Shown: positions 2,530-25,244 of the stretch, piece by piece
Layout: every line of letters starts with the position of its first letter
How positions within the stretch are numbered: position 1 is the first letter of the stretch
Source of the DNA: a virus
IMG/VR virus record: IMGVR_UViG_3300044814_000105
Span: 1-32,352 of that record
Reading direction: 5' to 3' (one strand)
Length of the DNA: 32,352 nucleotides
Program-made: the position numbers and the translations under genes
The notes under the pieces: model-generated
What the model was told of the DNA's origin: nothing
The model's input: the letters and a program-made list of their open reading frames with translations, nothing else
Database searches by the model: none

Positions 2530-3101
2530 TAAGCAGCCTCAGCAGATTGATTCATCGTCTTACCAGAGAGAATCCAGTCAATGAAAGTGTCGATGAAGTC
2601 AGGAACATAGTCCGCTGGAGCTACAAACTCATCGCCTTCTGCCGTAGGAATATCAGGTGAGCAGATACAGATGAATGATGCGGCCCCAGCGAGCCCGGTT
2701 GATCCACTCCCCGACGTTGCGGGGGTGTTCGCGTAGATCGTGTTTCCATTCGCTGACCAGATGCCAAGTCTCGAATCGCCGCCCCGTAAGAAATCGTCGT
2801 ACTCAGGGCGATAGCCGTAATACTGCGGCGGACTGACATCAACGATCAGCGTGCAATCCTTGAGATAGTCTTTGAGCAGGCCATTAGGGAAAGAAGCCGC
2901 GCCGGTCGTGAACGTTAGCGGCTTGATCGCTCGTAGTGAGGAGCGTTTATTTTCATCCTCCGCATAGACCTCGGCTACCTGATTATTGATCTGGGGAAAG
3001 GCGGCATCAATGACTGCGCGCAAACGATTAAGCGACACGGGGCCAGTTGCCTTGCGCGTTACTCCAAAGATTATCCGGTCACGAATTTCGCCATAGTTCA
3101 T
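2529..3101 (-). CDS. Putative head-tail connector or adaptor protein (190 aa)
   Basis: The N-terminal 50 residues look helical (YGEIRDRIIFGVTRKATG then NRLRAVIDAAFPQINNQVAE). A mixed alpha/beta middle follows, with aromatic residues (PPQYYGYRPEYDDFLRG), and the C-terminus ends in a helix (DFIDTFIDWILSGKTMNQ). Size and helix-rich start resemble adaptor or tail-completion proteins of podoviruses, but no family signature is decisive. The start codon overlaps the previous gene's stop (ATGA) and its stop overlaps the next start (TAATG), so it is translated within the structural operon. No Cys cluster or membrane segment is present. Confidence 0.65.
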   Translation of the reverse strand: MNYGEIRDRIIFGVTRKATGPVSLNRLRAVIDAAFPQINNQVAEVYAEDENKRSSLRAIKPLTFTTGAASFPNGLLKDYLKDCTLIVDVSPPQYYGYRPEYDDFLRGGDSRLGIWSANGNTIYANTPATSGSGSTGLAGAASFICICSPDIPTAEGDEFVAPADYVPDFIDTFIDWILSGKTMNQSAEAA

Positions 3102-3376
3102 AGCGACTTAAACCCTCCCTTGCTGCCAGGTATTCCTCCACTTTTGGGGGCAACGTCTCCACCGGGCCAAGTTGTCGGCGCGCCACCACCAGCATCGCCT
3201 TGCGGCATACTGCCCGGCCGACCCATCAGCCTTTGCTTGAACGCGCTTCCAATCGCGCCGACGTTTGGGGCAGCTTGCTGATTTTGCCCATCATCCATTT
3301 GCACCCAATCAGGAAGAGCCTGTTGAGGCGGTTGTATGTCGGGGTAGTAGCGATTCGTGGCTCTATCGAAGGGCAT
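3098..3376 (-). CDS. Small Pro/Gly-rich virion-associated protein with an FKQRL motif (92 aa)
   Basis: This is a low-complexity protein rich in Pro, Gly and Gln and probably disordered. Its only recognisable element is A-F-K-Q-R-L at residues 45-50, the same short motif seen three times in the 478-aa protein and twice at the C-terminus of the 2496-aa protein. The last residues are G-G-F-K-S-L, a partial copy. The start has a clear Shine-Dalgarno sequence (GGAG, 7 bases before ATG). It is the first gene after the plus-strand cargo gene and overlaps the connector-like gene by ATGA. A small scaffold, linker or docking peptide is plausible, but no function can be assigned. Confidence 0.7.
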   Translation of the reverse strand: MPFDRATNRYYPDIQPPQQALPDWVQMDDGQNQQAAPNVGAIGSAFKQRLMGRPGSMPQGDAGGGAPTTWPGGDVAPKSGGIPGSKGGFKSL

Positions 3377-3439
3377 TTATTTCTCCGTTTCTCTTAATCA
3401 GCGTAGCCGATTTTCATTGTTTAGATTGACGCGGAATCC

Positions 3440-3468
3440 TTGACGGCTTAACAGAAGCGGGCATAGAC
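3440..3468 (+). promoter_or_regulatory. Candidate promoter of the plus-strand secreted-protein gene
   Basis: TTGACG at 3440-3445 is followed after 17 bases by ATAGAC (3463-3468), or after 16 by CATAGA. The -35 is good and the -10 poor. The ATG lies at 3480, 11 bases past the -10 box, so a transcript from here would be leaderless or nearly so. No Shine-Dalgarno sequence precedes the ATG, which fits. Spacing matches the promoter-like site before the other plus-strand cargo gene. Confidence 0.35.
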
Positions 3469-3479
3469 TCTGCCGCACT

Positions 3480-3944
3480 ATGAAAACCTTACTCTGCATC
3501 TTGCTGCTTTCGTGCTCCATATCTGCCCAAGAACCTATGGCCTATGGTCAACCTTCCGATCTCAAGGGTCTCAAGAAAATCTTTGTCGATACCGGCACCG
3601 ACATGAAAAGCCGGGCAACGATTCTCGACGCACTACAAAAGTCGAAACTCGACTTTGAAATAGTTGACGATGCTGACAGTGCCGAAATCGTTCTAGGCTT
3701 CGGTGCGAGCAAAGTTTCACGCCGCACCATTGCTAACACAACGCGAACTGAAACCGGATCGTCAACGGCTGTTTATGACATCCAGCGTCGAGCAGGCGCG
3801 GGACTTGTTATGGCCCATGCTCGCGGAAAAGATCGTCTGGTTTACTCTTTCACTGACGTTCAAAAAAACATCTTCGAGGGCAAGCCCGTGAACAACTTCG
3901 TCAAAGAATTTATTAAGCTTTACAAGAAAGCGAACGGCATCTAA
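3480..3944 (+). CDS. Secreted or lipid-anchored cargo protein (154 aa, moron-like)
   Basis: It begins with a typical export signal: Met-Lys-Thr, a Leu/Ile/Cys-rich core (residues 4-12), then S-I-S-A before Q17, which could be a signal peptidase I site. L-L-S-C at 9-12 is a weak lipobox alternative. The mature part starts with a pattern (LKGLKKIFVDTGTD, then a helix, then FEIVDDADSAEIVLGFG) that I associate with small exported proteins of unknown function in Acidobacteria and relatives; this is from memory and unverified. It is on the opposite strand to every neighbouring structural gene. Its TAA shares four bases (CTAA) with the stop region of the giant gene. It probably acts on the host envelope or is lysogeny cargo rather than a virion part. 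Confidence 0.75.
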   Translation: MKTLLCILLLSCSISAQEPMAYGQPSDLKGLKKIFVDTGTDMKSRATILDALQKSKLDFEIVDDADSAEIVLGFGASKVSRRTIANTTRTETGSSTAVYDIQRRAGAGLVMAHARGKDRLVYSFTDVQKNIFEGKPVNNFVKEFIKLYKKANGI

Positions 3945-6900
3945 GGCGCAGACTGCATCAGTCTCGTCTTAAACGGACTCTTCGGAGCCCCGGCTGCAAA
4001 GCGTGATTTGAATCCCTGCTTAGGCGCCGCCCCAGACGGAATTGGGAACTCTCTCTTTTCAGGCTTCTCTGGTTTTTCAGGTTCGTTATCTTGCCCTTCC
4101 TGAGCAGCGGCGTTCCTGACCTGTTTCAGCCACTCGATCTTATCCGCATCGCTGGCCTTGTCGTACTCAGGCATTGCCACGGTTTGTTCCAGTGCGCGTT
4201 TGATGTAAGGGTTCACCCGAGATTCGCGGGCCTTAAATTCCTCCCTCGATTCGTCTGGTTGCTTGACCGCTCCCTTGATGTCAACCTTAAGTCTCTGGGC
4301 CTCATCACTCGCCTTAGTAGCCTGCGAACCAAAGACGGAATTGATTGGCACGTTCTCTCTTAGTTTAGGGATGCCGAGTTCAATCGTTTGCCCGAGACGT
4401 TGAGAGAATGTTCCGTCGGCCGCACGTTTGACAGGTTGGCCCGTCGGTCCTTTGTCCAGTGCTTGCGCGCCCTCTTGAATGAAGCCGGGAACCATCCCAC
4501 GAACTTGTTGACCGGCCATCTCTGCGGCTCCGCGAGACCCCTCTTTTCCAGTGAAGAACCTTGCCGGTGTTTCGTAGAACGGCACACTTTCGGCCAGTCC
4601 TTTACCAGCCGCGATCCCGCCTTCCAAGCTGGCATCGAATGCACCCATGTCACGCTTCGCATCAATCACCCTTCGGATGGTCGCGCCAAGCTGCGCGGCC
4701 TCGAGTATTGGAACGTGTCCGGCCCATTTTGGAATTCTTACCCCAAACCACTTCTGCTCACCGGGTCCAGGCTCGCCTTCCTTTCTCTTTTCATGTTTCT
4801 GGTAGTAGCCGCCAAACTTGTCAGGATTAAAGAAGCCCAACATCATCATGCCGAGACCCACGCCACCCTTTTTCCATGAGCGCATGATCGAATCAGCTTG
4901 TTGAGGCGTCAGATTTTCGAACCCATTCCGATACGCTTTCGCTGTAAGGAAGGCAGCGCGAGGCAGCCCAAGAGTGTAATTTGCCGTCTCGCTCCCGATG
5001 TTTACCGGGACTTTAGTAATCGGGAAAAAAAACTTGCCAACGTGCGCCCCGGTCTTAGCGATCCCCGATCCTTTTTCCCATTTCCGCATCACATCATTGA
5101 ATCCATCTGACAAGGCATTAGGTTGCTGGAAGATTGCCCGATTGGAATCAACGTAAGCCTCGCCATAAAGAGCCAGTTGTACATTCGGATCAGATATATC
5201 AACTCCATTTTTGGCGGCGTGAGTCAGTCGCTTTTCAAACGCTCTGGTCTGCTCAACCTGTCGTGCGGGCTCTTTGAACGATCCGTGTACGCGACCAGGG
5301 AGACTTAGGAATTCCATGTCGCCCTTTTTGCCGCCGTACATGATGTCTTCAGATGTCCTACCAGCACTCAGTTTTCTCCAGGTCTCTTTCCAAACGTCGC
5401 TCTTAAAGAGTTCACTGATCGCCCTGACTTCCGCGCCGATGTTCAGGTTAGCTTCACGCGGAGCGCGTCTCGCCAGTTCAGGAAATATCTTTGATGGGAC
5501 TACGCCCCAAATCTCTTCCACGGGCGTTACCACGACTCGTCCCGTGGCCGCGCTGGTTAGTTTCCCAAGCGTTGAGGTGTACATGAGTTTCGCTGCGCGA
5601 CTCCACCCAACGGTGTAGCGAGCGAGCATGTCCCACTTGTTCACCTTGCGCAGACTTTCGATCTTCTTGTCTCGGCGTTCACGCAGATCGGCCAACCGAT
5701 TCTGAAGATCTTTTGTCTCGCGGTCAGGCAATAGATTAGGACGTTCGGGTTTTGAAAAGTCGCCTCGATTGATCTGGTCTTCGAGTTTTAAGACAGACCC
5801 CGCCAACCGCTTCTTGGTTGTGGCCAGTGGATCGCGTGGCTGTTTACGAAGATCGCGCAAGACACCGTTAAGCGTGTCGCGTTCAGCTTTCAACTGCGCG
5901 GTTTTTTCATTGTCTGCTGCTGTGGGCTTACGCTCTTTTGCGGCAAGTTCATTCTTTGCGATTCGAGACTCTAAATCAGCGACCTGTTTTGTCAGTTGCT
6001 TTTCACGTTTAGCTAAAATCTTGTCCTTATCTCCGGCGAGAACGTCTCGAATATCATCCTTGCTCAACTCTCGAGCGTAGTCTTTCAGAGTTGAGTGGAT
6101 CTCGTCGACCAGCCCTGCGGAGGTATTAATCCCGGCCCGGACTCTGTTCTTGGCAATCTTCCCGATGAGTACAACCATCTCAGGATCAAGGCCCATGTGC
6201 GCCCGATTTGCCAGTCGCCCAAACTGTGCAGAGAGTTCCTTGTATTCACTGTCGAGATCGTCCTTAGTTAGTGCTCGTTTATCGCGTCGCGCCTCCCGCG
6301 CAACCTCATCTTGAATCCGGCGGATAACCGGATCGGCTGACCGTTCAGGTTTCGCGGCGAGCTTCTTTTTCAGAGACTCGATTTCTTTAGTCATCTCTGA
6401 TAGTTGGCGCTGCACGTCGGGAGAGATTTCACCACCCTTTGCTGCCCTTGCGTTCCGTATCACCGTGACTAAAGCATCCTCACGATCCACCAGAGCCTTA
6501 CGCGCATTCAGGGCCGCTGAGTTATCTCGGCCAGAACGCTCCAAAGCGGAGTCCAATACATCCCGCTGTTGATCTAAATCCTTTTCGCGGAGACGCCACT
6601 CAGCCAAAGACTTCGGATCGTTCTTGCTGATTGCTTCCTCAGTCTTCCCGAGCGCAGATTCTTGTTCCCGCACAAGGTTGGCTTTATAGACTGCGAGCGC
6701 TCCGGTTTCTTCAGCGGTTAGTGCTCTTGGGTGCCTGGCTCTCTCTTCAGCAAGGCTGCGTGGATCGATCCGTCCCTCCTCGATGGCCTTCTTGCCCTTG
6801 AGGACGGCATCGCCTACTCCGTCGTACATCTGTTTTTCGATTGGATCGAGGCCGCGAGATTCGCGTTCGGCTTCAGTGATAGCGTTCTTGATTCCTACCC

Positions 6901-9900
6901 TGTCAGACGCAGGACGTTCGACACCGGGGAGATCGGATTGTCGCTGAGAGGTTTGCTCGCTTCCTGAGAGTTGAGCCCAAACGCTTCTTAGGTGCTCGTT
7001 CGCTTGAGGACCAAATTCTTCGCGTAGCTTGCGCGACCATTCTTGGAAGGTAGGTTTAACTTTCTGATCGTAAAGTTCCCATCCACGGACGATTAGTGAA
7101 TCGACGAGTTCATAAGGATCGGCCCCGGCATGTCGGTATTCAATTCCTTGTTGTTTTTCTGCGGCCCGTTTAGCAGATCGCTCGCGGGCGGCGCGGACGA
7201 TTGAAGGCTCTGCCGGTGCGCTTGTCGTATCAGTTGCCGAAAGTGGTTGACGTGCTGAGGATTCAGCTTTAGTCCCTTGATTCTCGGCGGCGAATAGACC
7301 AGTCTGCCTTTGTGAGTCATTGATTGCCTCTCTTACTGCGGCGTCAAATAATTCTTCCTTACGCGGCGCTTCCTTGTCAAAAAAACTTTCCTGCTTCGGA
7401 CTGCCAGCGGCCTCAGCACCCTTAGCGTAATTGTCGAGAATGGCGCTGATCGCTTTGCCGCTGCGTTTGTATTCATCGAACGCCCAGAGTGCTTGCTTCT
7501 GAAGCGGTGTTAGGTCTTCTTCGAATAACGTCTTCTGATTCAGATAATCCGCAACCGTCGTGTTCTGCTCACGTAGCGACGACAGCTTACTTAGTGCCCT
7601 TGAAAGATCACTTGTAACATCGAGTGGATACCGTTCACCCTTGGCAATCCCTTCCTTCAATGACGCAAACTGTCCAGCTCGCTGAAGAAGTGCCGTGGTT
7701 ATGCTGCGGACGTTATTATCCGGCGATTCCGACAACTTCTCAAGGGCGCGAAGTCCTTCAGGCGAATCCCCATAGGCCCGCGCAAAGATCGCATTGCGAA
7801 TCCTGGTCAATCCTTCTTGCGAGACTTCGCCTTTACTTCCAACGTAACGGCCGAGTTCATTTGGCCCAACCACATCGCGCATGAACGCTCGAATGAAGTT
7901 TGTATTCTGTGCGGTATTGATCTCGCCTGACTCCGAAGGGGAGAAAGTAGAAAGTAGATCGCCGGTGATTTTCTGCCCGTCACTCTTTGCCTGCTCTGGC
8001 GCGGACATACTAGCGATGCCAGATTCGTTCGCTTCTTTCACGAACCGAGGACGATCAACTTCAGACTGCCGGACGCGAACCAAAACAGGTTCTTTTGCGC
8101 CTTCGATGGCCTTCGGGTCGATCCCAAACGTCTCTGCATTGTCGAGTAGGTATTGACGGTAGCTATTCGCCTTTCCTGATTCAAAGGCTTTACGTAGACC
8201 GAGTACCCGGCCGTTACCCGATTCAACGACGCCATCAGGCCCGACAATCGGAGCGCCCTCACTGGCTTTCGGTGACTCGCCAAGATACTCAGGGCGAAGG
8301 TTCTGCGCGATGCGATTTATCTGCTCCGCACTCGCCGCACGTCCGCGCTCGCGTGGCTGCAATTCGGCAGGGAAGTCTGGGTTTTGGTTGAGTAGCGTGT
8401 CGTGCGACGTAGACAGGTCTTTCGCTTCAACAATCGCGTACTTCGTGGCTACTTCAGTTCCGCGTTCGGTGCTGGCTTTTGATTCGCGGCCTTCAGAGAT
8501 GACATTGAGAGGCGTCGCCGTCTCAGGTTGTGGTACGGCCTCTTTAGGTTGGGGAGACACGGGCGCCGAGGCGGGCTCTAACTCGCCACGCAATGAGCTG
8601 ATTTTGAATCGAAGGTCGTGCGCCTCTGCCTTGTTTCGCGCAAGGCTATCTTCCTGAATTTTACGAATCGCCAGATCGGATGCTAGCGAAATCCTTTCGG
8701 CTTTTCTTATTTGATCGTTCAAGTCCAGTGCCCGTTGCGTTACCGTATCAAGCTCTGCTTGCACCTGTGCCCGTGGCCGCGAAGGACGGGAATCGAGTTC
8801 AGTAGGTTGATCGTAGACGTTTGACTTTACGGGCGAAGGCGGAAGCGTTGGTGGTAATTCACCCTCAACGTAAGGAATGCCAAACGAGGTTCCTGTATTG
8901 CCTTCTCGCGCCCGCATTTCATTATCAAGCGTTGCCGCGATAGCCTGTCGCTCCGTGGGCGTCGCTGCGTTTATTTGAGAGTCAACGGTATGGACTTCCC
9001 CGTCTTGATCTTTAACGTAATCAAGTGTGCCGATCGGCTGGCCTTGAGCATCGTGAGTTGTGAGACGGAAGAACTTAAGAGACGAATCCGGCACTGACAA
9101 CGGTTCGCCAATGGTCGTATTGGATCGATTCTCAGGTATGGAGGCGACCTGTGCCGCCCCTTGGGGTGTGACTGAAGGCAGATCACTAGCAGGTTGAGCG
9201 AGAGCGCTACTCTCGCTTGCGGGTTGTGATGCTTGCTCAAGAATCTCCCGAGCTTTGGAAGGAGGCATTCGGTAAATCTCTGCCTCAGAAAATCCGCGAT
9301 CAGCCAAATCTGCTCGCATTTGCGGAGTGATAAAGGGCGTTGCTTGTTCTACTTTGGGGCTTCGTACTATCGCCGCATCTCGATTGCCTTGAGTACGCGG
9401 ATTCTGTACTACTGAAACCCCACCTTCGTTATTCTGAACCTTTAGCTTTCCGTCTCCCGTTCGTCCAACGACTTCGCCTCCGTCGATGCGGGGATCGGAG
9501 TGGCGGATGATTGGTTTCAGTTGAGGTTCTGTGTCCTTAATCGATTCCGCAGCGCTGGGCGTATCTTGTCGTATATTCGTATCAGCCGGCGCAGTTGTGA
9601 CTCGCTCGCCCTGAATCGCGTCTGCTGCCACTGCTGGGTTTGTTCCTCCGTTTGGCAGTACTGCGTCAGTTCGTCGGCCCAGTCCTGCTCGGTTCGATGC
9701 TTCATCAAGTCCTTCATTTCCACCTCCCTTTGTTTCACCTTTTCCATGCAAAAACGGCAGCGCCGCAAACGGAAGATTTTCGGTGATAGCTTGTACGGGC
9801 GACTCTCCGCGCTGCCATGCTTCCACGGCAGGCTGAGCCACCATTGCAGTGCTCGTAGCCGCCTTTCCGGTGATAGGCAATCCTGCTTCATCAAACGCCG

Positions 9901-11431
9901 CTGGTGCGCCACCCAAGACCGCCTGAGCCGCCGCTCCTTGTAGCCCACCTCGTATGCGCTCTTGTGGTGTTGAGCCTTCCAAAATGCCCAAAGCCGCCAA
10001 CTGTGCTGGCCCTAACTTGTGAGTTGCGATCAGCATCGCCGCCGTGGGGATAAGTCCGCCAATTCCGGCTTTAATTCGATCTTCGGTGTTAGTTAGCGGC
10101 GCGTCTTTATCAACCTGTTCGCTTGCCGCTTTTTCGACTGCTGCCTGTCTCTCAAATTCGTTTCCTACTGAACCGGGAAGGACAGAGCCAAAAGCCTGTG
10201 CGGCCCCTGCTGTGCCACGAATCATCCCGCGGAGTACAGGAGAGTCTTTCGCTGTTTGTTGTGCGGCCTTCGCTTCTGCAACGTCCGGCTTCGATTCTGT
10301 GAAAGCTTTGTTCTCGGCAGCAACGTGCTCATCGACTTGTCGTTGGGCTTCGGCCATCGCCTTGCTGAGATCGCCACCCGACTGAACATAGGTGTTAATG
10401 AAATCGACGGCACCCTTTGACGGTCGCACGTAATAGCGTCCCTGCTCGTCTTGCTTCAGTGCGCCACCGCCGAGTGTCAGGATGCTATGACCTGTCTGTG
10501 ACTTGTATTGCTCGCCCGCTTTCACGTACTCAGGGCCAAGCGTAGAGAGATAGCCATTTACAACCTCATCTTCGGAAGGCGTTACGTGCGGAGAAATTGG
10601 AAGAGTGACTCGATCACCTAATTGCCGGGACTCGGGCGACTCGTACTTCTTGGCTTGCAGCCCCGCGACACCGCGAACGGAAGTGTCAGGTTTGCTCAAT
10701 TCGTTATAGACGTTCTCAACCGGGTTCAGGGAGACGGAATTCTCTGGCGCAACCGTACCTTGTCTAAACGCGATCGGCTTCGCAGTGATCGGTTCGGCTG
10801 AGGGTAGTTCGATATTGCTATCCGGCTCGCGCACTGAAGAAGTGACTTGCGGGGTTTTTGCTTCACCCTTCCATGCGGCTAGCAAATCAGGATCAAGATC
10901 CGTTGTCGGCGGGGTATCAACAGGACTTGGCTGGGACTCGTCACCACGCCAGGCCCTTAGTAATTCAGGATCAACCGTTGGCGTTGATTGCCCTTTGACC
11001 TGTGCTCCCACTGAAAACTTCTGCCCGGTTTTGCTAGACGGATAGCCAAGATGCATGTGCGCCCCCGTAGCAACTCCCGGCACGGCGCGATCGAAGGAAA
11101 GAAAGGGTGAGTTATTCTGCTTGAGATACCCGCTTAACCACTGGCCCTCTGCGCTTGTGGGACTCAGGCTTACATCGGCACTATTGCGATGATCGTATCC
11201 CCATCGATTGTGAATACTGCCCTGACCCTTGTTTGCCAAAGGCAGAGGCTTTCCAAACTGAGTTTGATAATCTTTTTGGATTTGCGGGAGTCTATCGAGC
11301 GACCACGATGCTTCACCAGGCTGGAACTTCTCAAACGCACGAGACTGCCTTCGCTGCGGGACAGAACCATCCTTGAACGCCGCGAGTAGATCGGGGTCGA
11401 TTTGAGGTTGCAGTTGATCCTGTGGCGTCAT
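3941..11431 (-). CDS. Giant polyvalent virion protein with M15-like peptidase and ddrB-ParB-like domains (2496 aa)
   Basis: It is probably an internal (ejection) protein delivered with the DNA. In order: a zinc peptidase-like domain (about 60-145; H74, D80, H81, D86, then G-A-H-M-H-L-G with H125 and H127) resembling M15/LAS peptidoglycan peptidases; flanking 'D-P-[DE]-L-L-x-A-[FW]' repeats at 11-22, 153-164 and 179-190; hydrophobic Gly/Ala segments (about 420-540); a ddrB-like ParB domain (about 997-1160; GAPIVGPDGVVESGNGR ending near 1075); a segment near 1440 (Y-E-L-V-D-S-L-I-V-R-G-W) common in polyvalent proteins; long coiled coils (about 1500-1930); and a C-terminal third with hydrophobic stretches (near 2133 and 2200). 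Two F-K-x-R-[LF] motifs end the protein (2474-2478, 2487-2491). The ATG at 11431 lacks a strong ribosome site. Family calls are from motif recognition, and no frameshift is seen. Confidence 0.85.
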   Translation of the reverse strand: MTPQDQLQPQIDPDLLAAFKDGSVPQRRQSRAFEKFQPGEASWSLDRLPQIQKDYQTQFGKPLPLANKGQGSIHNRWGYDHRNSADVSLSPTSAEGQWLSGYLKQNNSPFLSFDRAVPGVATGAHMHLGYPSSKTGQKFSVGAQVKGQSTPTVDPELLRAWRGDESQPSPVDTPPTTDLDPDLLAAWKGEAKTPQVTSSVREPDSNIELPSAEPITAKPIAFRQGTVAPENSVSLNPVENVYNELSKPDTSVRGVAGLQAKKYESPESRQLGDRVTLPISPHVTPSEDEVVNGYLSTLGPEYVKAGEQYKSQTGHSILTLGGGALKQDEQGRYYVRPSKGAVDFINTYVQSGGDLSKAMAEAQRQVDEHVAAENKAFTESKPDVAEAKAAQQTAKDSPVLRGMIRGTAGAAQAFGSVLPGSVGNEFERQAAVEKAASEQVDKDAPLTNTEDRIKAGIGGLIPTAAMLIATHKLGPAQLAALGILEGSTPQERIRGGLQGAAAQAVLGGAPAAFDEAGLPITGKAATSTAMVAQPAVEAWQRGESPVQAITENLPFAALPFLHGKGETKGGGNEGLDEASNRAGLGRRTDAVLPNGGTNPAVAADAIQGERVTTAPADTNIRQDTPSAAESIKDTEPQLKPIIRHSDPRIDGGEVVGRTGDGKLKVQNNEGGVSVVQNPRTQGNRDAAIVRSPKVEQATPFITPQMRADLADRGFSEAEIYRMPPSKAREILEQASQPASESSALAQPASDLPSVTPQGAAQVASIPENRSNTTIGEPLSVPDSSLKFFRLTTHDAQGQPIGTLDYVKDQDGEVHTVDSQINAATPTERQAIAATLDNEMRAREGNTGTSFGIPYVEGELPPTLPPSPVKSNVYDQPTELDSRPSRPRAQVQAELDTVTQRALDLNDQIRKAERISLASDLAIRKIQEDSLARNKAEAHDLRFKISSLRGELEPASAPVSPQPKEAVPQPETATPLNVISEGRESKASTERGTEVATKYAIVEAKDLSTSHDTLLNQNPDFPAELQPRERGRAASAEQINRIAQNLRPEYLGESPKASEGAPIVGPDGVVESGNGRVLGLRKAFESGKANSYRQYLLDNAETFGIDPKAIEGAKEPVLVRVRQSEVDRPRFVKEANESGIASMSAPEQAKSDGQKITGDLLSTFSPSESGEINTAQNTNFIRAFMRDVVGPNELGRYVGSKGEVSQEGLTRIRNAIFARAYGDSPEGLRALEKLSESPDNNVRSITTALLQRAGQFASLKEGIAKGERYPLDVTSDLSRALSKLSSLREQNTTVADYLNQKTLFEEDLTPLQKQALWAFDEYKRSGKAISAILDNYAKGAEAAGSPKQESFFDKEAPRKEELFDAAVREAINDSQRQTGLFAAENQGTKAESSARQPLSATDTTSAPAEPSIVRAARERSAKRAAEKQQGIEYRHAGADPYELVDSLIVRGWELYDQKVKPTFQEWSRKLREEFGPQANEHLRSVWAQLSGSEQTSQRQSDLPGVERPASDRVGIKNAITEAERESRGLDPIEKQMYDGVGDAVLKGKKAIEEGRIDPRSLAEERARHPRALTAEETGALAVYKANLVREQESALGKTEEAISKNDPKSLAEWRLREKDLDQQRDVLDSALERSGRDNSAALNARKALVDREDALVTVIRNARAAKGGEISPDVQRQLSEMTKEIESLKKKLAAKPERSADPVIRRIQDEVAREARRDKRALTKDDLDSEYKELSAQFGRLANRAHMGLDPEMVVLIGKIAKNRVRAGINTSAGLVDEIHSTLKDYARELSKDDIRDVLAGDKDKILAKREKQLTKQVADLESRIAKNELAAKERKPTAADNEKTAQLKAERDTLNGVLRDLRKQPRDPLATTKKRLAGSVLKLEDQINRGDFSKPERPNLLPDRETKDLQNRLADLRERRDKKIESLRKVNKWDMLARYTVGWSRAAKLMYTSTLGKLTSAATGRVVVTPVEEIWGVVPSKIFPELARRAPREANLNIGAEVRAISELFKSDVWKETWRKLSAGRTSEDIMYGGKKGDMEFLSLPGRVHGSFKEPARQVEQTRAFEKRLTHAAKNGVDISDPNVQLALYGEAYVDSNRAIFQQPNALSDGFNDVMRKWEKGSGIAKTGAHVGKFFFPITKVPVNIGSETANYTLGLPRAAFLTAKAYRNGFENLTPQQADSIMRSWKKGGVGLGMMMLGFFNPDKFGGYYQKHEKRKEGEPGPGEQKWFGVRIPKWAGHVPILEAAQLGATIRRVIDAKRDMGAFDASLEGGIAAGKGLAESVPFYETPARFFTGKEGSRGAAEMAGQQVRGMVPGFIQEGAQALDKGPTGQPVKRAADGTFSQRLGQTIELGIPKLRENVPINSVFGSQATKASDEAQRLKVDIKGAVKQPDESREEFKARESRVNPYIKRALEQTVAMPEYDKASDADKIEWLKQVRNAAAQEGQDNEPEKPEKPEKREFPIPSGAAPKQGFKSRFAAGAPKSPFKTRLMQSAP

Positions 11432-11459
11432 TGATCCGGCTTTGCTTTGATGATATAAG
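11431..11459 (+). promoter_or_regulatory. Candidate promoter of the plus-strand membrane-protein gene
   Basis: TTGATC (11431-11436), exactly 17 bases, then TATAAG (11454-11459; 5 of 6 match the -10 consensus). The ATG at 11470 is 10 bases beyond the -10 box, so the mRNA would have almost no leader, and no Shine-Dalgarno sequence is present. The -35 box abuts the start codon of the oppositely transcribed giant gene (ATG at 11431-11429), so the two transcripts diverge from the same few bases. Confidence 0.5.
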
Positions 11460-11469
11460 TCCGCGCCGT

Positions 11470-11679
11470 ATGGTCGGTCGCATCATTTACAAAATCGGCT
11501 ACGGACTATTCATGGTTGCGACTCTCTACCTTGTAATCGCCATCGCCACCTTAGTCCCCTATGGCATCTATCTCGTTCTCTCTGTCTTCTGGCATGAATC
11601 CCATGGGTTCTTCGCTCTTACCGTCGCGATAGCTGCCTACTGGATTTGGTTTAACCGCTCGTACAACCAAGAGACTTAA
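11470..11679 (+). CDS. Small two-helix membrane protein (69 aa, moron-like)
   Basis: The protein starts MVGRIIYKIGYGLFMVAT and has two hydrophobic segments (about residues 8-42, possibly a hairpin or one long helix, and about 50-62, FFALTVAIAAYWIWF), with a polar tail NRSYNQET. I chose ATG 11470 because it lies just downstream of a good -10 box. The longer reading from GTG 11422 would overlap the start of the giant gene and add a non-hydrophobic, poorly supported N-terminus. Its TAA abuts the TTA (stop) of the 478-aa gene with no base between. It is the second plus-strand gene inside the minus-strand structural operon. Holin-like, superinfection-exclusion or other membrane cargo roles are all possible, and none is shown. 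Confidence 0.6.
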   Translation: MVGRIIYKIGYGLFMVATLYLVIAIATLVPYGIYLVLSVFWHESHGFFALTVAIAAYWIWFNRSYNQET

Positions 11680-13116
11680 TTACCGCTGTGCAGCCTTTGC
11701 GTAAGCGTCAATCTCAGTCTGAGTAGGCGCGCGTCCGTGTTTATTCTTAAACGCTTTCAGGAATCCTGGTGGAGCTTGTGCGTGAGTGGCGTTAGGCTGC
11801 ACGTTACTCTGCGCGCCCTTCGCCTTCGCAATCGCTTCCGATAGGCCCGCTGCGTGAAGTCGATATTGCGTGGCCTCTCCCTGAAGCTTTGCCATCCGCT
11901 GCTTACCACCAGGAGTTTTATCGTCAGCAAGTTCTTGGGCCTCCTGATCCTTTTCAGCAGCGTAGGTTTCGAGCATTCCGCGAGTCTTATCCAGTTCAGG
12001 GACATCACCCAACTTCGCAGCGCCGGATTGAGCGATAAGTCTAGTGCGCTCCATTGCATCAGCCGCGTTCTTATCTCGACGGGTATTACGTCCCGTCTCG
12101 GCGGTTACGTTCCACGATGTAATCCCGGTATCTGTCTTCTGTCCAGTTCTCTTGTTGTAGGCTTGAATTTGCCCTGCGTCGTCTGCCTGCAAAGCCACTT
12201 CGCCGGAGACAAACTTCGGCTGTAAGTCCTTCGGAAGATCAAGGGCACTGGAAATCGCGGCAAGTGTTTCAGGATCATTCGCACCGCCGGAGTTGTAGAC
12301 ACGAAGCGCATCCTGAACTCGCTCGTGTTTGCCCATTTGCGCCCACCGATCTTTATGAGCCTGCGCCGCCGCCATTCTCTGCTCCCTGTTAAATCCCTGC
12401 TCTTGATTCCGACTGGCAATAGTCGCAACATTCTTCGCGGGCGTTTTTGTCCACGTACCATCGGGAAGCTGAATCGGAACCATCTCCGATAGGTCTCGCT
12501 GGCTTTGCTCTTTTTGGATCGCAAGGTCTTGTCCGAGTTGGCCCATCGCGCCCGCTTCTTCTCTCTGGCGACCTGTCTGCAATGGCTTGCCGCCCAAACT
12601 AAGAGCAACGGACTGTGATGCCATGCCTAACTTGTCCTTGAGCGAGAGAGGTTTGCTTTGAACGTCTCGCAGGAACTGGCTATCGTCCGAAACGTAATCA
12701 CGTGGTTGCGTGCGCCGATCACGAGCCGCCATAAACGGCTCGCCGCTCGATCCAAACGACGTGGGGGCTTGGGCTTGCAGCAATCGCTGCTTAAACGTAT
12801 TCATCGCCGGAGGCGCACCTGTCTGACTCAGATTGCTTTGCTGAACAACTTCTTCAGGTGGCGGAGGATTGACCATGCGCGGACGCTCTTGAGGTTGCTG
12901 GGGAACTTCAGGTGGAGGCGCATCACCCATCATGCTCGGTTGAGGAAGTGGTTTCTGCTGGCCCTGCTGTTGTTGCCCTTCAAGGAATCGCTGCTGAAAT
13001 GCACTCGCTGGAGGCTGTTGATTCTGCTGTTGACGAATCAATTCATCTTCCAGAGTTCCGCCGGCGTATCCGGGAATGTCTTGTGCCGTCAGTCGGCGTT
13101 TGAATGCGTTTGCCAT
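11680..13116 (-). CDS. Gln/Pro-rich internal virion protein with three F-[KQ]-x-R-[LF] motifs (478 aa)
   Basis: The N-terminal 120 residues are disordered and Gln/Pro-rich. They carry three copies of a short motif: F5-K-R-R-L9, F40-Q-Q-R-F44 and F108-K-Q-R-L112. The rest is mostly helical and charged, with coiled-coil character near 370-425 (ETYAAEKDQEAQELADDK). The C-terminal end has F-L-K-A-F-K-N-K-H-G-R-A-P-T-Q-T-E-I-D-A-Y, a helix pair seen at the ends of phage internal proteins as I recall them. Its ATG overlaps the portal stop (TAATG). Position between the portal and the giant protein suggests an ejected core protein or a chaperone-like partner of the giant protein. No enzymatic motif is seen. 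Confidence 0.75.
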   Translation of the reverse strand: MANAFKRRLTAQDIPGYAGGTLEDELIRQQQNQQPPASAFQQRFLEGQQQQGQQKPLPQPSMMGDAPPPEVPQQPQERPRMVNPPPPEEVVQQSNLSQTGAPPAMNTFKQRLLQAQAPTSFGSSGEPFMAARDRRTQPRDYVSDDSQFLRDVQSKPLSLKDKLGMASQSVALSLGGKPLQTGRQREEAGAMGQLGQDLAIQKEQSQRDLSEMVPIQLPDGTWTKTPAKNVATIASRNQEQGFNREQRMAAAQAHKDRWAQMGKHERVQDALRVYNSGGANDPETLAAISSALDLPKDLQPKFVSGEVALQADDAGQIQAYNKRTGQKTDTGITSWNVTAETGRNTRRDKNAADAMERTRLIAQSGAAKLGDVPELDKTRGMLETYAAEKDQEAQELADDKTPGGKQRMAKLQGEATQYRLHAAGLSEAIAKAKGAQSNVQPNATHAQAPPGFLKAFKNKHGRAPTQTEIDAYAKAAQR

Positions 13117-15728
13117 TATGCCGCCGCCTTTACTGGTTTGGGTTTCGCTTTAGCAGCACGTACAGCGTTATCGCCCGCGACCTTCGCGGTCTCGATAGCG
13201 TTCTGCCCCTGCTCATGCGTCACAGCCAACTGTCCTTGAAGTTCCATTGCTTTCAGTTTCGCTTCATGGTCTTGATCCGCCGCTTTATGGACATCGGCCT
13301 GCTGCCGATCTTGTGCGGCCTGATCCGCTTCGTGTTGTTGTTGTGCGCCTTGATTCGGATCGCCACCGCCCTGAAGCATCTGTTGACCCAATGCGCTCGG
13401 TGCTTGGGCTGCCGCCATTCCCGCTCCCTGTACTAATCCAGCGTTCACTGATTGAGGCAGATCGATTTGAGTCTGATAATTTTGATGAACCCAATACATT
13501 CCTTCGCCCGCCATGCGAATCGGCATCGGCGCACTCATCCCTGTGTCCAGGTCCAGCCAGTTGCGCCACCATTCAGCTTTCTCTTTTTGTTTCGGCTCTA
13601 CCTTGCTCACCGGAGGCCGCAGACTCTGAATTAACATCTGCGGATCGTCAACACCCGCCTCTAAGTTCGATTCCATCTGCTCTAACCTTGTCAGGCAAAT
13701 AGTTGAAATCACGTCACTATCTTCAGCCTCGATCTTGACGTTAAAGGGCGCGACAATCTGTTTGAATAGTGCGGGGTCTTTCTCTTTCAACATCAGGAAC
13801 ATTTCAACACCTTGCGTCGCTTCAAACAGTGCTCTGATTTCATTCTGTTGGCTGTAAGGTGTAACGGGCATCTCTGAGTTTTGAGTTAACTCATAGATGA
13901 TCTTTCCCTTCAGATCTGAACCTGAAACATTCCGCCCTTTCGCCAGTCCTTTACCGGGAAAATATCTCGACACCTTTCCATAGGTTGCTTCAAGTCGAAC
14001 GAGAATCTTTGCGATCCTGACTCGTGATTCACCTTTAGTCAGGAGCATTGGGGCAAACAGGGAATTAGCCAGTCCAGCGGTTATCTGCGCTCCAGTAGCA
14101 GTCCGATTATCAATCGACATGAAATCAGAGAACTCGGTCACCATCGACGAGACTTGAAACATATCTCTTAGAAAAACAGAACCGTACTGGATGTATTGCT
14201 GGTTCACGTTTCCCGGCGCCAACTGAAACACTGCGTCTTTCAATCCGAGACCCGGAGGGAGCATAGAAAGATTCACGTCAACAGTTGCGTTTGGACGGTT
14301 GAGGTTCTTTGATTGATCCTCTTTTAGTAGCCGCGTGTCGGTCATCCACGCCGGCGTGGCCGATCCCGCGAGTCCCTGGTATATCTGTCCGTCAACCGCA
14401 TTGAATCTCTTTTGAACCGCCGCAGTGTCCTGCATTCCCCGGCCAGCACCGGAGTCAGACTCGATGAACCATTGACCTGTGACCACTTCGTCCTTGTGAG
14501 TTTCGTTCGCATAGACTCCGAGGATCAAAGACATGTCATTGACACCGACAAAGCAGACTGGCCCTTTGAATGAATCGCTCATTCGACCCTTCGGAAGCCT
14601 TACTCCCGATACAGTCATGCTCTCTTCGATCTCAATCTCGGCAAGGTCTTCTTGCGACATCCAGAATTCTGCAATGGTAGGTCTCGTGTCGTTATCACGG
14701 CGATTGGTGTCCCCAATTCCCGCGCCGCCAAAAGGCTGGCCTGCATAGGCGTTTGAATGGAGCACGTCAAGGCTTCGATCATCGGAACTTGTGGTATCAG
14801 GAATGATCGCATTTCCGAGCATCAGCTTTAATGCGCCCGGAGTGATTCTCTGGCGATAGATAGCCCATGAAGACTCTTCTAATTCCTTTGAGAGATCCCA
14901 GCGCCAGCCGGGAAGGGGGGTTTGAACGATTTCAGGCTCACCAACAGGCGTTGACGCCCCAATGGATACTTGAGGCAGATTCAAGGGTTGGGGTTTTTGA
15001 ACATCAACCGCGGCACTCCCACAATTCATGCACTGATGGCCAAATTGCGTTTCCTGGAAATCTCGTGCAGTGCCTTGATGTTGACACTCGTAGCACTCTC
15101 CCGATCCATCATCGAGTTGTACGCTTTGTTCGCTCACATCTCTCGATTGGGCCATCCATTCACCCTTAAACGGGTTCCAACGGACACGATGGATGAACAT
15201 TCCATTCGTCGCCGCATACAAGGATTCCCGTCGGCTGAACTTCGCGGTATAGAACTGGCTCTCCCAATAGTCAACTACCGGGCGAGCGGCTTGTGCGGTC
15301 GCAATGTCGATTGGCTGATCCCCTCCCGGCCTAATCGTTACGTTCGGGTTGGAGGCCATCATCTTCGTCTCGCAGCACTGGTAATAGAACCGCATCAGAT
15401 TCATTGCTGTTTGACGGTAGGTATCATCCGTAGCTAAAGGGCGAACGTAATAACCGGGGCCGTAGGGTCTGCGCTGAAGAATTTGATTGCCGTTGATGAA
15501 CATGGAGACTAGTTGCCCCATTGAGACAATCTCGTCCCACTCCTTCTGCATGTAAGACATGTAGGCGGAGTATTTCTTTTTTACGGCTTCGTGAAACTTA
15601 TCCGGGGTTGCGGGTGGTTTGCCTTCCTGAAAGGCACGAACTATCGGATCGCGGGGAGCGAGGTTTTGTCCGTTACGGCTTAGAGCAACGGAAAGTGCGG
15701 TAAAGTTGTTTGCGGGGGTCACACTCAT
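13116..15728 (-). CDS. Portal protein with an inserted zinc ribbon (870 aa)
   Basis: This is probably the dodecameric DNA-entry channel of the head. Features supporting it: large size, position downstream of the large terminase, a helical N-terminus, the portal-like start of the core (QILQRRPYGPGYYVRPLATD, then RQTAMNLMRFYYQCCETKMM), and a Gln/Ala/Lys-rich coiled-coil C-terminus (about 780-870) typical of podovirus portals. Four cysteines in C212-x2-C215 and C233-x2-C236 make a zinc ribbon, an unusual insertion in the wing or stem region. ATG 15728 lies 6 bases after the upstream stop. There is no strong Shine-Dalgarno site, so coupling is likely. Length is above the 500-750 aa common for portals. 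Confidence 0.82.
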   Translation of the reverse strand: MSVTPANNFTALSVALSRNGQNLAPRDPIVRAFQEGKPPATPDKFHEAVKKKYSAYMSYMQKEWDEIVSMGQLVSMFINGNQILQRRPYGPGYYVRPLATDDTYRQTAMNLMRFYYQCCETKMMASNPNVTIRPGGDQPIDIATAQAARPVVDYWESQFYTAKFSRRESLYAATNGMFIHRVRWNPFKGEWMAQSRDVSEQSVQLDDGSGECYECQHQGTARDFQETQFGHQCMNCGSAAVDVQKPQPLNLPQVSIGASTPVGEPEIVQTPLPGWRWDLSKELEESSWAIYRQRITPGALKLMLGNAIIPDTTSSDDRSLDVLHSNAYAGQPFGGAGIGDTNRRDNDTRPTIAEFWMSQEDLAEIEIEESMTVSGVRLPKGRMSDSFKGPVCFVGVNDMSLILGVYANETHKDEVVTGQWFIESDSGAGRGMQDTAAVQKRFNAVDGQIYQGLAGSATPAWMTDTRLLKEDQSKNLNRPNATVDVNLSMLPPGLGLKDAVFQLAPGNVNQQYIQYGSVFLRDMFQVSSMVTEFSDFMSIDNRTATGAQITAGLANSLFAPMLLTKGESRVRIAKILVRLEATYGKVSRYFPGKGLAKGRNVSGSDLKGKIIYELTQNSEMPVTPYSQQNEIRALFEATQGVEMFLMLKEKDPALFKQIVAPFNVKIEAEDSDVISTICLTRLEQMESNLEAGVDDPQMLIQSLRPPVSKVEPKQKEKAEWWRNWLDLDTGMSAPMPIRMAGEGMYWVHQNYQTQIDLPQSVNAGLVQGAGMAAAQAPSALGQQMLQGGGDPNQGAQQQHEADQAAQDRQQADVHKAADQDHEAKLKAMELQGQLAVTHEQGQNAIETAKVAGDNAVRAAKAKPKPVKAAA

Positions 15729-23684: not shown

Positions 23685-25244
23685 CTATCTGTTGGCGATT
23701 GCTTGCGCGCCCTCCCGCATTCGTTGGCGAATCTCTGCCTCGGTGGTAGCAGGGGGACGTTGGGTGACTTGGGTAGGATCGTAACCGCTTCCTGCGATTG
23801 CCGGTCTTGCCTGAGTCGCGCCGTTCAAGGTGGAATTGTGAGACTGGGCCTGAAGGGAAAACAGTTCGCTTAGCATACCCATCAAGGGTTCCGCTACAGC
23901 CTTCGCGTTGATGGTCAAAGCTCGTCGCGCCCGTTGCGCATTGCTCTCAAGCATTTGAACATCTTGGGGAAGATTTGGGTTCCCGTTTTGCCCGAGTCCG
24001 GCCCTAAAACGCTGATTCGCAAAGTTGCGATTATTGGAAGCAAACTCAACCCGAGCCGCGTCCATTTTCTGCAATACTTCGGCTGGTAGCCCGAGATCCG
24101 CAGCAATGTCTTTGATTAGAAATGCCACGTCTGGAACTGCCGCCGCCGCTGCCACGAGACTGACCATGAGACCAGCGCCGCGGTTAATTTTTTGAATCTG
24201 TGCGTTTGTTTGCGCCACCTGCTCCGGCCCCATCTGCTGCGCTTCAGGGGAATTTGGATCGAGTGGCTTTATGGGCTGGAACTTCTCACAAATGTTTTGT
24301 GCGAAACCTGAAAAACCTTCCTTGAACTGCTGCTCGACAAGTTGATTGCCCGCGTTTTCAGCTTCCCTTTGGATGTACTGTTCACGCTGTTGGGCGACTT
24401 GGCGATCTCGCTGCTCTCTCTGCGCTTCGCGCTCCCGAGTGTCGATCTTGAACTTCTGGTCTTCCAGATATTCATTGATGAACTCAGGATCGTTTAGCTT
24501 GAGAGATTCGCGTTTGTCGTAAGGGAGCTTTTTGTAGACATCCTGAAGCTCTGGCTTGACGACTTGCAGTTCTTCGGCTGTAGGTTGCCAGGTTGGCGCT
24601 ATCGAAACCTGCTCAACCAATCCAAGAATGCTCGCAGCCTTTGCTTTCCTCGCCGGATCTGATGCAATGGCCTCCAAAGCGAGATCGAGTCTGGTCATTT
24701 GGCGTCCCGTTTCCGGGTCTCGCGTCATGCCATTCAACAAATCTGCGCTCAGAAAGTCAGCACGTTCAGGTGCCGTTTCGGTAAGCTGCTGCACTAAAGA
24801 CTGCGTGGAGGGGATTAGCTGACCTGTTTGCGGATCATTCTCCCAGCCGTACAGTTTTTCTCGGAAATCAACGATTTCCTGAAGCTGTTCAGGCTTTTCA
24901 AACCGTTCCAGATGTTGCTGGAAGGGCTCGACAGCCTGATATTTCGTCTGGATTTCGCTGAATTGTGGTTTGAGCGCGTCGTAAGCGCTTTTGATTCGAG
25001 CGGCCTGCTCAGCAAACGGAGAGCGATTCGCTACCGCTGCCTGTAACTCTTCGTCGCTAGGAAAACCCGCGAGCGGATCTTCTTGGGCTGGAGTTTGAGT
25101 GGACTGCTCGCCTTGAACGGGCTGTTGCAAGTTTACGTCTGCCGACGAGGTGCCCGTGTCCTGAGTTGGAGTCGGTGATGCTCCCGCTATGATTGCGCCG
25201 GCGTCAGGACTAGAACCGCCAGTTACACCTGTTAGGTCTTCCAT
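23685..25244 (-). CDS. Probable scaffolding protein (519 aa)
   Basis: The composition is typical: a disordered Thr/Ser/Pro/Gln N-terminus (to about residue 60), then long charged helices with Gln/Glu/Lys/Arg (QREQRDRQVAQQREQYIQRE near 280-300) and Ala-rich helices, and a charged helical C-terminus (ATTEAEIRQRMREGAQAIAN). It lies immediately upstream of the capsid gene, as scaffolds usually do, with 16 bases between. The ATG (25244) has no clear Shine-Dalgarno sequence but an AT-rich stretch lies just upstream. It could include a minor core role because it is longer than typical scaffolds (about 300 aa). No protease motif is recognised. Confidence 0.78.
   Translation of the reverse strand: MEDLTGVTGGSSPDAGAIIAGASPTPTQDTGTSSADVNLQQPVQGEQSTQTPAQEDPLAGFPSDEELQAAVANRSPFAEQAARIKSAYDALKPQFSEIQTKYQAVEPFQQHLERFEKPEQLQEIVDFREKLYGWENDPQTGQLIPSTQSLVQQLTETAPERADFLSADLLNGMTRDPETGRQMTRLDLALEAIASDPARKAKAASILGLVEQVSIAPTWQPTAEELQVVKPELQDVYKKLPYDKRESLKLNDPEFINEYLEDQKFKIDTREREAQREQRDRQVAQQREQYIQREAENAGNQLVEQQFKEGFSGFAQNICEKFQPIKPLDPNSPEAQQMGPEQVAQTNAQIQKINRGAGLMVSLVAAAAAVPDVAFLIKDIAADLGLPAEVLQKMDAARVEFASNNRNFANQRFRAGLGQNGNPNLPQDVQMLESNAQRARRALTINAKAVAEPLMGMLSELFSLQAQSHNSTLNGATQARPAIAGSGYDPTQVTQRPPATTEAEIRQRMREGAQAIANR

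Follow-up and report, generated by a model that had tools for sequence, protein, structure and literature searches.

Why should three different proteins of one virus carry the same short peptide? The question is raised by a 32-kb record of an uncultivated bacteriophage (32,352 nucleotides, hereafter the window), in which a first-pass annotation had reported six sites of the form F-[K/Q]-x-R-[L/F] in three proteins whose genes are read from the minus strand: a 478-aa protein, a 2496-aa protein (the giant protein) and a 92-aa protein. All six were found at the reported residues (Table 1), as was the GGFKSL end of the 92-aa protein, and no further site was found elsewhere in the window's predicted proteins (9,208 aa counted). 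Shuffling in 40-residue blocks gave an expectation of 0.20 copies in all proteins and 0.07 in the three carriers, with 0/5,000 shuffles reaching six copies; when just the three low-complexity regions (287 aa) were shuffled, the mean was 0.013 and the maximum 2 in 200,000. Six copies seen against 0.07 expected is not the frequency of shuffled low-complexity sequence.

The conserved arginine is encoded by CGA (three times), CGC, AGA and AGG, as had been claimed, and identical motif residues are mostly written in different codons, the exception being the F40/F108 pair, with 13/15 DNA identity. That pair excepted, the differing codons uphold a likeness at the protein level and indicate that most copies did not arise by recent DNA duplication. 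The reported disorder of the surrounding sequence held for residues 34-143 of the 478-aa protein (AlphaFold pLDDT below 50) and for the last 60 residues of the giant protein (FoldIndex -0.20), and was borderline for the 92-aa protein (FoldIndex 0.01).

Table 1. Coordinates of the motif copies, their carriers and the other features discussed in the text.
Feature	Record	Location	Strand	Remarks
Motif copy 1, F5-K-R-R-L	window	13090..13104	-	N-terminus of 478-aa protein
Motif copy 2, F40-Q-Q-R-F	window	12985..12999	-	478-aa protein
Motif copy 3, F108-K-Q-R-L	window	12781..12795	-	478-aa protein
Motif copy 4, F2474-K-S-R-F	window	3998..4012	-	near C-terminus of 2496-aa protein
Motif copy 5, F2487-K-T-R-L	window	3959..3973	-	2496-aa protein; ends 5 residues before C-terminus
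Motif copy 6, F46-K-Q-R-L	window	3227..3241	-	92-aa protein
C-terminal G-F-K-S-L	window	3101..3115	-	92-aa protein; S-L end kept in most orthologues (alignment)
478-aa protein	window	11680..13116	-	motif-bearing disordered N-terminal third; directly after presumed portal gene
2496-aa giant protein	window	3941..11431	-	ejection-type (polyvalent); DdrB-ParB domain, motif-bearing C-terminal tail
92-aa small protein	window	3098..3376	-	one motif copy
870-aa presumed portal	window	13116..15728	-	assigned by gene order and size only; marker for finding relatives
Acidic repeat copy 1, DPDLLAAFK	window	11372..11398	-	residues 12-20 of 2496-aa protein
Acidic repeat copy 2, DPELLRAWR	window	10946..10972	-	residues 154-162
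Acidic repeat copy 3, DPDLLAAWK	window	10868..10894	-	residues 180-188
Acidic repeat locus	window	10868-11398	-	
Acidic repeat locus	L005	from 2669		
Acidic repeat locus	L011	from 14659		
Acidic repeat locus	L013	from 13963		hydrolase and acidic repeats, differing between G005 and G006: 13963-14500
Acidic repeat locus	L014	from 14018		hydrolase and acidic repeats, differing between G005 and G006: 14018-14650
Acidic repeat locus	L016	from 14247		
Scaffold gene	window	23685-25244	-	
Scaffold gene	L008	11997-13523		
Scaffold gene	L011	285-1868		
Scaffold gene	L014	412-1968		
Scaffold gene	L037	6685-8223		
Scaffold gene	L039	213-1766		
154-aa protein	window	3480-3944	+	signal-peptide-like start
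Terminase large subunit	L002	4574-6904		apparent intein inside Walker A motif
Terminase large subunit	L016	5119-9153		apparent intein; protein of 1344 aa
Glycosyltransferase-like repeats	L005	14074-19899		very large protein
Glycosyltransferase-like repeats	L002	161-3043		very large protein
Collagen-like S-G-Y-S-G repeats	L005	8397-9104		virion-region protein
Collagen-like S-G-Y-S-G repeats	L013	1911-3140		virion-region protein
Collagen-like S-G-Y-S-G repeats	L014	4292-5527		virion-region protein

Relatives were reached in IMG/VR by a terminase search and then by profiles from growing alignments. Six carry the presumed portal, which is 51-57% identical to that of the window: five records of 72-75 kb (G001, G003, G005, G006 and G007) and a 10-kb fragment (G004). 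Searching an annotated phage collection with the portal, the capsid, the 478-aa protein and the C-terminus of the giant protein gave zero relatives, and genome contigs searched with the presumed portal gave none. The window and its relatives have a common gene order, in which scaffold, capsid, small genes, terminase and presumed portal are followed by the 478-aa family, the giant protein, the 92-aa family and tail genes. The presumed portal had no informative family match, and its AlphaFold model (pLDDT 37) was too poor to use; profiles of the portal and capsid matched none of the solved structures searched, and the major capsid protein matched a PHROG major head family weakly (3/5 members, best E 4e-4).

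Several other features of these genomes were observed. Two Cys-x2-Cys pairs at about residues 212-236 of the presumed portal are zinc-ribbon-like and kept in relatives. The 154-aa gene lies between the giant and 92-aa genes on the opposite strand and has the appearance of a moron inserted there; a search of genome contigs gave no match. In the clade, two terminase large subunits are apparently interrupted by inteins, some very large proteins contain repeated glycosyltransferase-like sequence (recognised by reading only), and collagen-like repeats occur in proteins of the virion region.

The first-pass annotation had called the three carriers structural proteins, a description that gene position and homologues suggest. 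They look ejection-type and would be packaged and ejected. The giant protein, whose gene sits among head and tail genes, contains at residues 990-1121 a DdrB-ParB domain (PF18763, E 4e-40) typical of phage polyvalent proteins, a group presumed to enter the virion and then to be injected (PMC5512222). In relatives the N-terminal 150 residues of this protein are exchangeable peptidoglycan hydrolases (a VanY-like domain, scoring below the curated cut-off, in G001; an SLT domain in both G003 and G005; a transglycosylase-like one in G006), the layout of ejection proteins such as T7 gp16; in the window's giant protein itself Pfam detected no hydrolase domain. With several unrelated domains in one giant late-gene protein, DdrB-ParB here and the hydrolases in orthologues, it qualifies as a phage polyvalent protein. 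The 478-aa protein matched no Pfam or PHROG family. In its AlphaFold model, of low overall confidence, the N-terminal third is disordered apart from isolated helices that span residues 3-12, 22-32 and 107-114; copies 1 and 3 fall in the first and the third of these.

In orthologues the motif was neither absent nor randomly placed: it recurred at the same places in relatives, though degenerate or lost in some. N-termini of the 478-aa family read MANAFKRRL in the window, MAFTDRL in G005 and G006, MAFRDRL in G007, MAFLDAF in G003 and MASLRDLL in G001. The copy-3 stretch reads NTFKQRL in the window, SPFIDRL in G003, RSFKDAL in G005 and G006, and SMRDMI in G001; G007 has an internal copy, PNFKNRL, and SFRELM was recognised by eye in the stretch of the G001 orthologue matching copy 2. 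The giant protein ends in SPFKTRLMQSAP in the window, SPFSRRFLSAP in G003, AFKNRFKG in G007 and TLRQQLMAQ in G001, and has no clear C-terminal copy in G005 and G006 (RVQRQFQ and YQFQR); copy 4 aligns in G001 to the non-motif GFESTYPAD, with about 60 more residues after it. In the 92-aa family the site reads AFKQRLM in the window, ALKSRFA in G003, GLKERMQ in G005 and G006, and FLKKKMG in G007, and is not clear in G001; the C-terminal ends of this family include GMKSL, GKSSL, GASL and GGSL in the alignment, and the protein also has a conserved P-[DE]-W-type element. The motif is looser than F-[K/Q]-x-R-[L/F], some copies are degenerate or missing, and its recurrence in relatives is partly plain orthology.

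A motif profile built from the window's six sites alone was run over the proteome of each relative. In G003 (23,161 residues) ranks 1, 3 and 4 were divided among the end of the giant protein, the member of the 92-aa family and the 478-aa orthologue. A predicted site was rank 1 in G007, the C-terminus of the giant protein was rank 5 in G001, and G005 and G006 had no predicted site among the top 18. With the near-duplicate G006 left out, the combined p was about 6e-9 when random segments of the proteome served as background and 2e-7 when shuffles did. Three copies recognised by eye in the 478-aa orthologue of G001 received no support from the profile (p 0.78). When the three proteins were searched blindly for their best common 6-mer, the motif emerged in the window only and in no relative; the match in G001 (3 of 300) was a different, Q/P-rich string.

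Hand-listed copies in different proteins of the same genome had a mean BLOSUM score of 11.7, against 9.8 for orthologous and 7.6 for non-orthologous copies between genomes (permutation p 0.0005 for within- versus between-genome pairs, from a list chosen by eye), and this greater likeness within genomes suggests that the copies have changed in step with a common partner. G005 and G006, which retain the motif mainly in the 478-aa protein, share the same motif sequences in the 478-aa and 92-aa families; neither MAFTDRLRKRISSP nor SFKDALSRP differs from one genome to the other, while the linker that joins these two stretches has indels.

We consider it reasonably, though not strongly, probable that a short linear motif docks the three ejection-type carriers at a common procapsid site, most likely the scaffold-portal core. 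Each Phi-x-x-R-Phi would form an amphipathic helical turn of about six residues, hydrophobic at its first and fifth positions and set in the disordered tails of three co-encoded ejection-type virion proteins, and the copies would bind one common groove during head assembly. The 478-aa protein would dock multivalently through its three copies and the giant protein through its C-terminal copies, and the 92-aa protein would likewise be gathered. A docking function had been proposed in the first-pass annotation; enrichment, codon divergence, recurrence in orthologues as ranked by the profile, the greater likeness of copies within a genome, their constancy between G005 and G006 and the short predicted helices argue for it. 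Against it weigh the blind search, the want of a clear C-terminal copy in the giant proteins of G005 and G006, the copies in the G001 478-aa orthologue that the profile does not support, and the share of plain orthology in the recurrence; the motif is also looser than first reported, and is missing from one protein in some orthologues. That the three carriers have one partner in common is what we infer, and the scaffold or portal core is the leading candidate by analogy with the T4 capsid-targeting sequence, the encapsulin cargo-loading peptide and the P22 ejection proteins.

The T4 capsid-targeting sequence is a short peptide that directs internal, ejected proteins and Alt to the prohead core (PMC5694885). 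The six copies of the present motif lie in three different proteins encoded near one another, which would resemble T4 if these putatively head-internal carriers do lie inside the head. The T4 sequence is a protease-removed propeptide of 10-20 residues in a single N-terminal position, whereas the motif described here is N-terminal, internal and C-terminal, occurs in several copies per protein and differs in sequence; no S77, S78 or Clp-type prohead protease was found with it in six possibly incomplete records. The encapsulin cargo-loading peptide, short, terminal and borne by co-operonic cargo, docks inside an HK97-fold shell (PMC7355545); unlike it, the present motif is viral and has multiple internal copies, and the shell is only a candidate docking surface. 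The part of the P22 source drawn on here (PMC12005531) describes ejection proteins that co-assemble with the scaffold in the procapsid and whose proposed docking site is the scaffold column's inner end, and in that part no shared short motif is described; no sequence relation to the carriers was seen. In T7 gp14-gp15-gp16, smaller partners accompany one large protein whose N-terminus is a transglycosylase (PMC8954989), a similar large-plus-small plan, again with no sequence relation seen; the giant protein differs in bearing a DdrB-ParB domain as well. No paper combining short linear motif, bacteriophage and procapsid was found in the open library searched.

Imitation of the scaffold C-terminus by the motif was considered and dropped. 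In the relatives the scaffold C-terminus follows a conserved pattern of its own, T-[RK]-x-[ED]-[IL]-x-x-x-[FY]-[GS], from which the window's scaffold end, EIRQRMREGAQAIANR, differs; just the window scaffold's EIRQRMREG resembles the motif, yet it lies outside the top 18 profile hits.

Each copy might instead be a terminal helix, or a low-complexity habit, conserved independently in its own protein; the copies would then have no partner in common, and their likeness in the window would be partly accidental. The failure of the blind three-protein search in five of six genomes and the degeneracy of the motif in G001, G005 and G006 fit such independent copies, which we nevertheless judge unlikely in view of the excess of exact matches in the window and the return of the same three unrelated proteins at the top of the G003 profile scan. 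The main rival mechanism is that the motifs act after ejection, as contact peptides assembling the three proteins into an envelope-spanning conduit. It draws on the T7 gp16-like plan of the giant orthologues with their N-terminal hydrolase, on the modelling of the N-terminal 'molecular tape' of T7 gp16 as stitching gp15 (PMC8954989) and on the closeness of the carrier genes; copies at the extreme termini of unrelated proteins suit recruitment at least equally, and we regard a conduit as distinctly unlikely. Cleavage of head proteins at short motifs is known from T4 and giant phages (PMC5694885), but recognition sites for a prohead maturation protease are very improbable here, because copies come to within 5-9 residues of a protein end and no S78, S77 or Clp-type prohead protease, the types sought, was found in the window or the five longer relatives, six records that are possibly incomplete. 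Chance in biased sequence, for a motif spotted after the fact in carriers rich in Q, P, G and K, is scarcely credible when composition-preserving shuffles give at most two copies and the motif is recovered independently in relatives.

Besides Phi-x-x-R-Phi, a blind repeat search identified an acidic nine-residue repeat, an addition to the first-pass annotation, that falls inside residues 1-190 of the giant protein in each of the six genomes tested; its score was reached by at most 1/300 shuffles per genome and by 0/300 in the window. Window copies 3 and 1 are identical at 8/9 residues, six of those eight in a different codon, and two of the G007 copies (DDLLSGIIE, DDLATGIVS, DDLLSGIVN) share seven residues, all seven in different codons. 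The repeats of the other relatives are DYGDVISAA, DYADVIGAA and SYDEVVAAA in G001, DDYDVLLDS and DQYDQLLDS in G003, PDLTDLFDK and PDLSDLFDK in G005, and DEYDVLLDS, DAYDDLLDE and DEYDKLLDE in G006. Mean BLOSUM scores were 33 within a genome and 9 between genomes, G003 and G006 being alike. The hydrolase region is bracketed by the repeat: one copy precedes it, at residues 3-12, and one or two follow, at 142-180.

The presumed portal, scaffold and capsid of G005 and G006 are 95-99% identical, in contrast to their hydrolases and acidic repeats, which differ, whereas the Phi-x-x-R-Phi copies of the 478-aa and 92-aa families do not; sequence identity restarts immediately past the last acidic repeat. 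Near-identical head genes beside a swapped hydrolase and swapped repeats indicate that repeat, hydrolase and repeat appear to move together as a cassette, and that it is not the head proteins which determine the acidic repeat. No acidic, enzyme-bracketing repeat was found in the N-termini of DdrB-ParB giants from eight unrelated phages (60 shuffles each): the repeat of Piluca (0/60 shuffles) is a pair of glycine-rich 8-mers, and those of PunY3's neighbour proteins and, borderline, of Bacteroides BS-TP4 (1-2/60) are likewise of another kind. The acidic, cassette-linked repeat is the stronger and more testable companion to the Phi-x-x-R-Phi motif. It is tentatively possible that the clade has two peptide codes, Phi-x-x-R-Phi following the head lineage and the acidic repeat travelling with the swapped hydrolase cassette.

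In only a few systems is it understood in detail how a phage chooses the proteins that it packages and ejects. A peptide code common to several ejection proteins would be open to direct test and would help to spot such proteins in the many phage genomes that lack homologues. If the clade does have two codes, three ejection proteins would be gathered at one head site by Phi-x-x-R-Phi, and lytic modules would be exchangeable in plug-in fashion on a constant virion.
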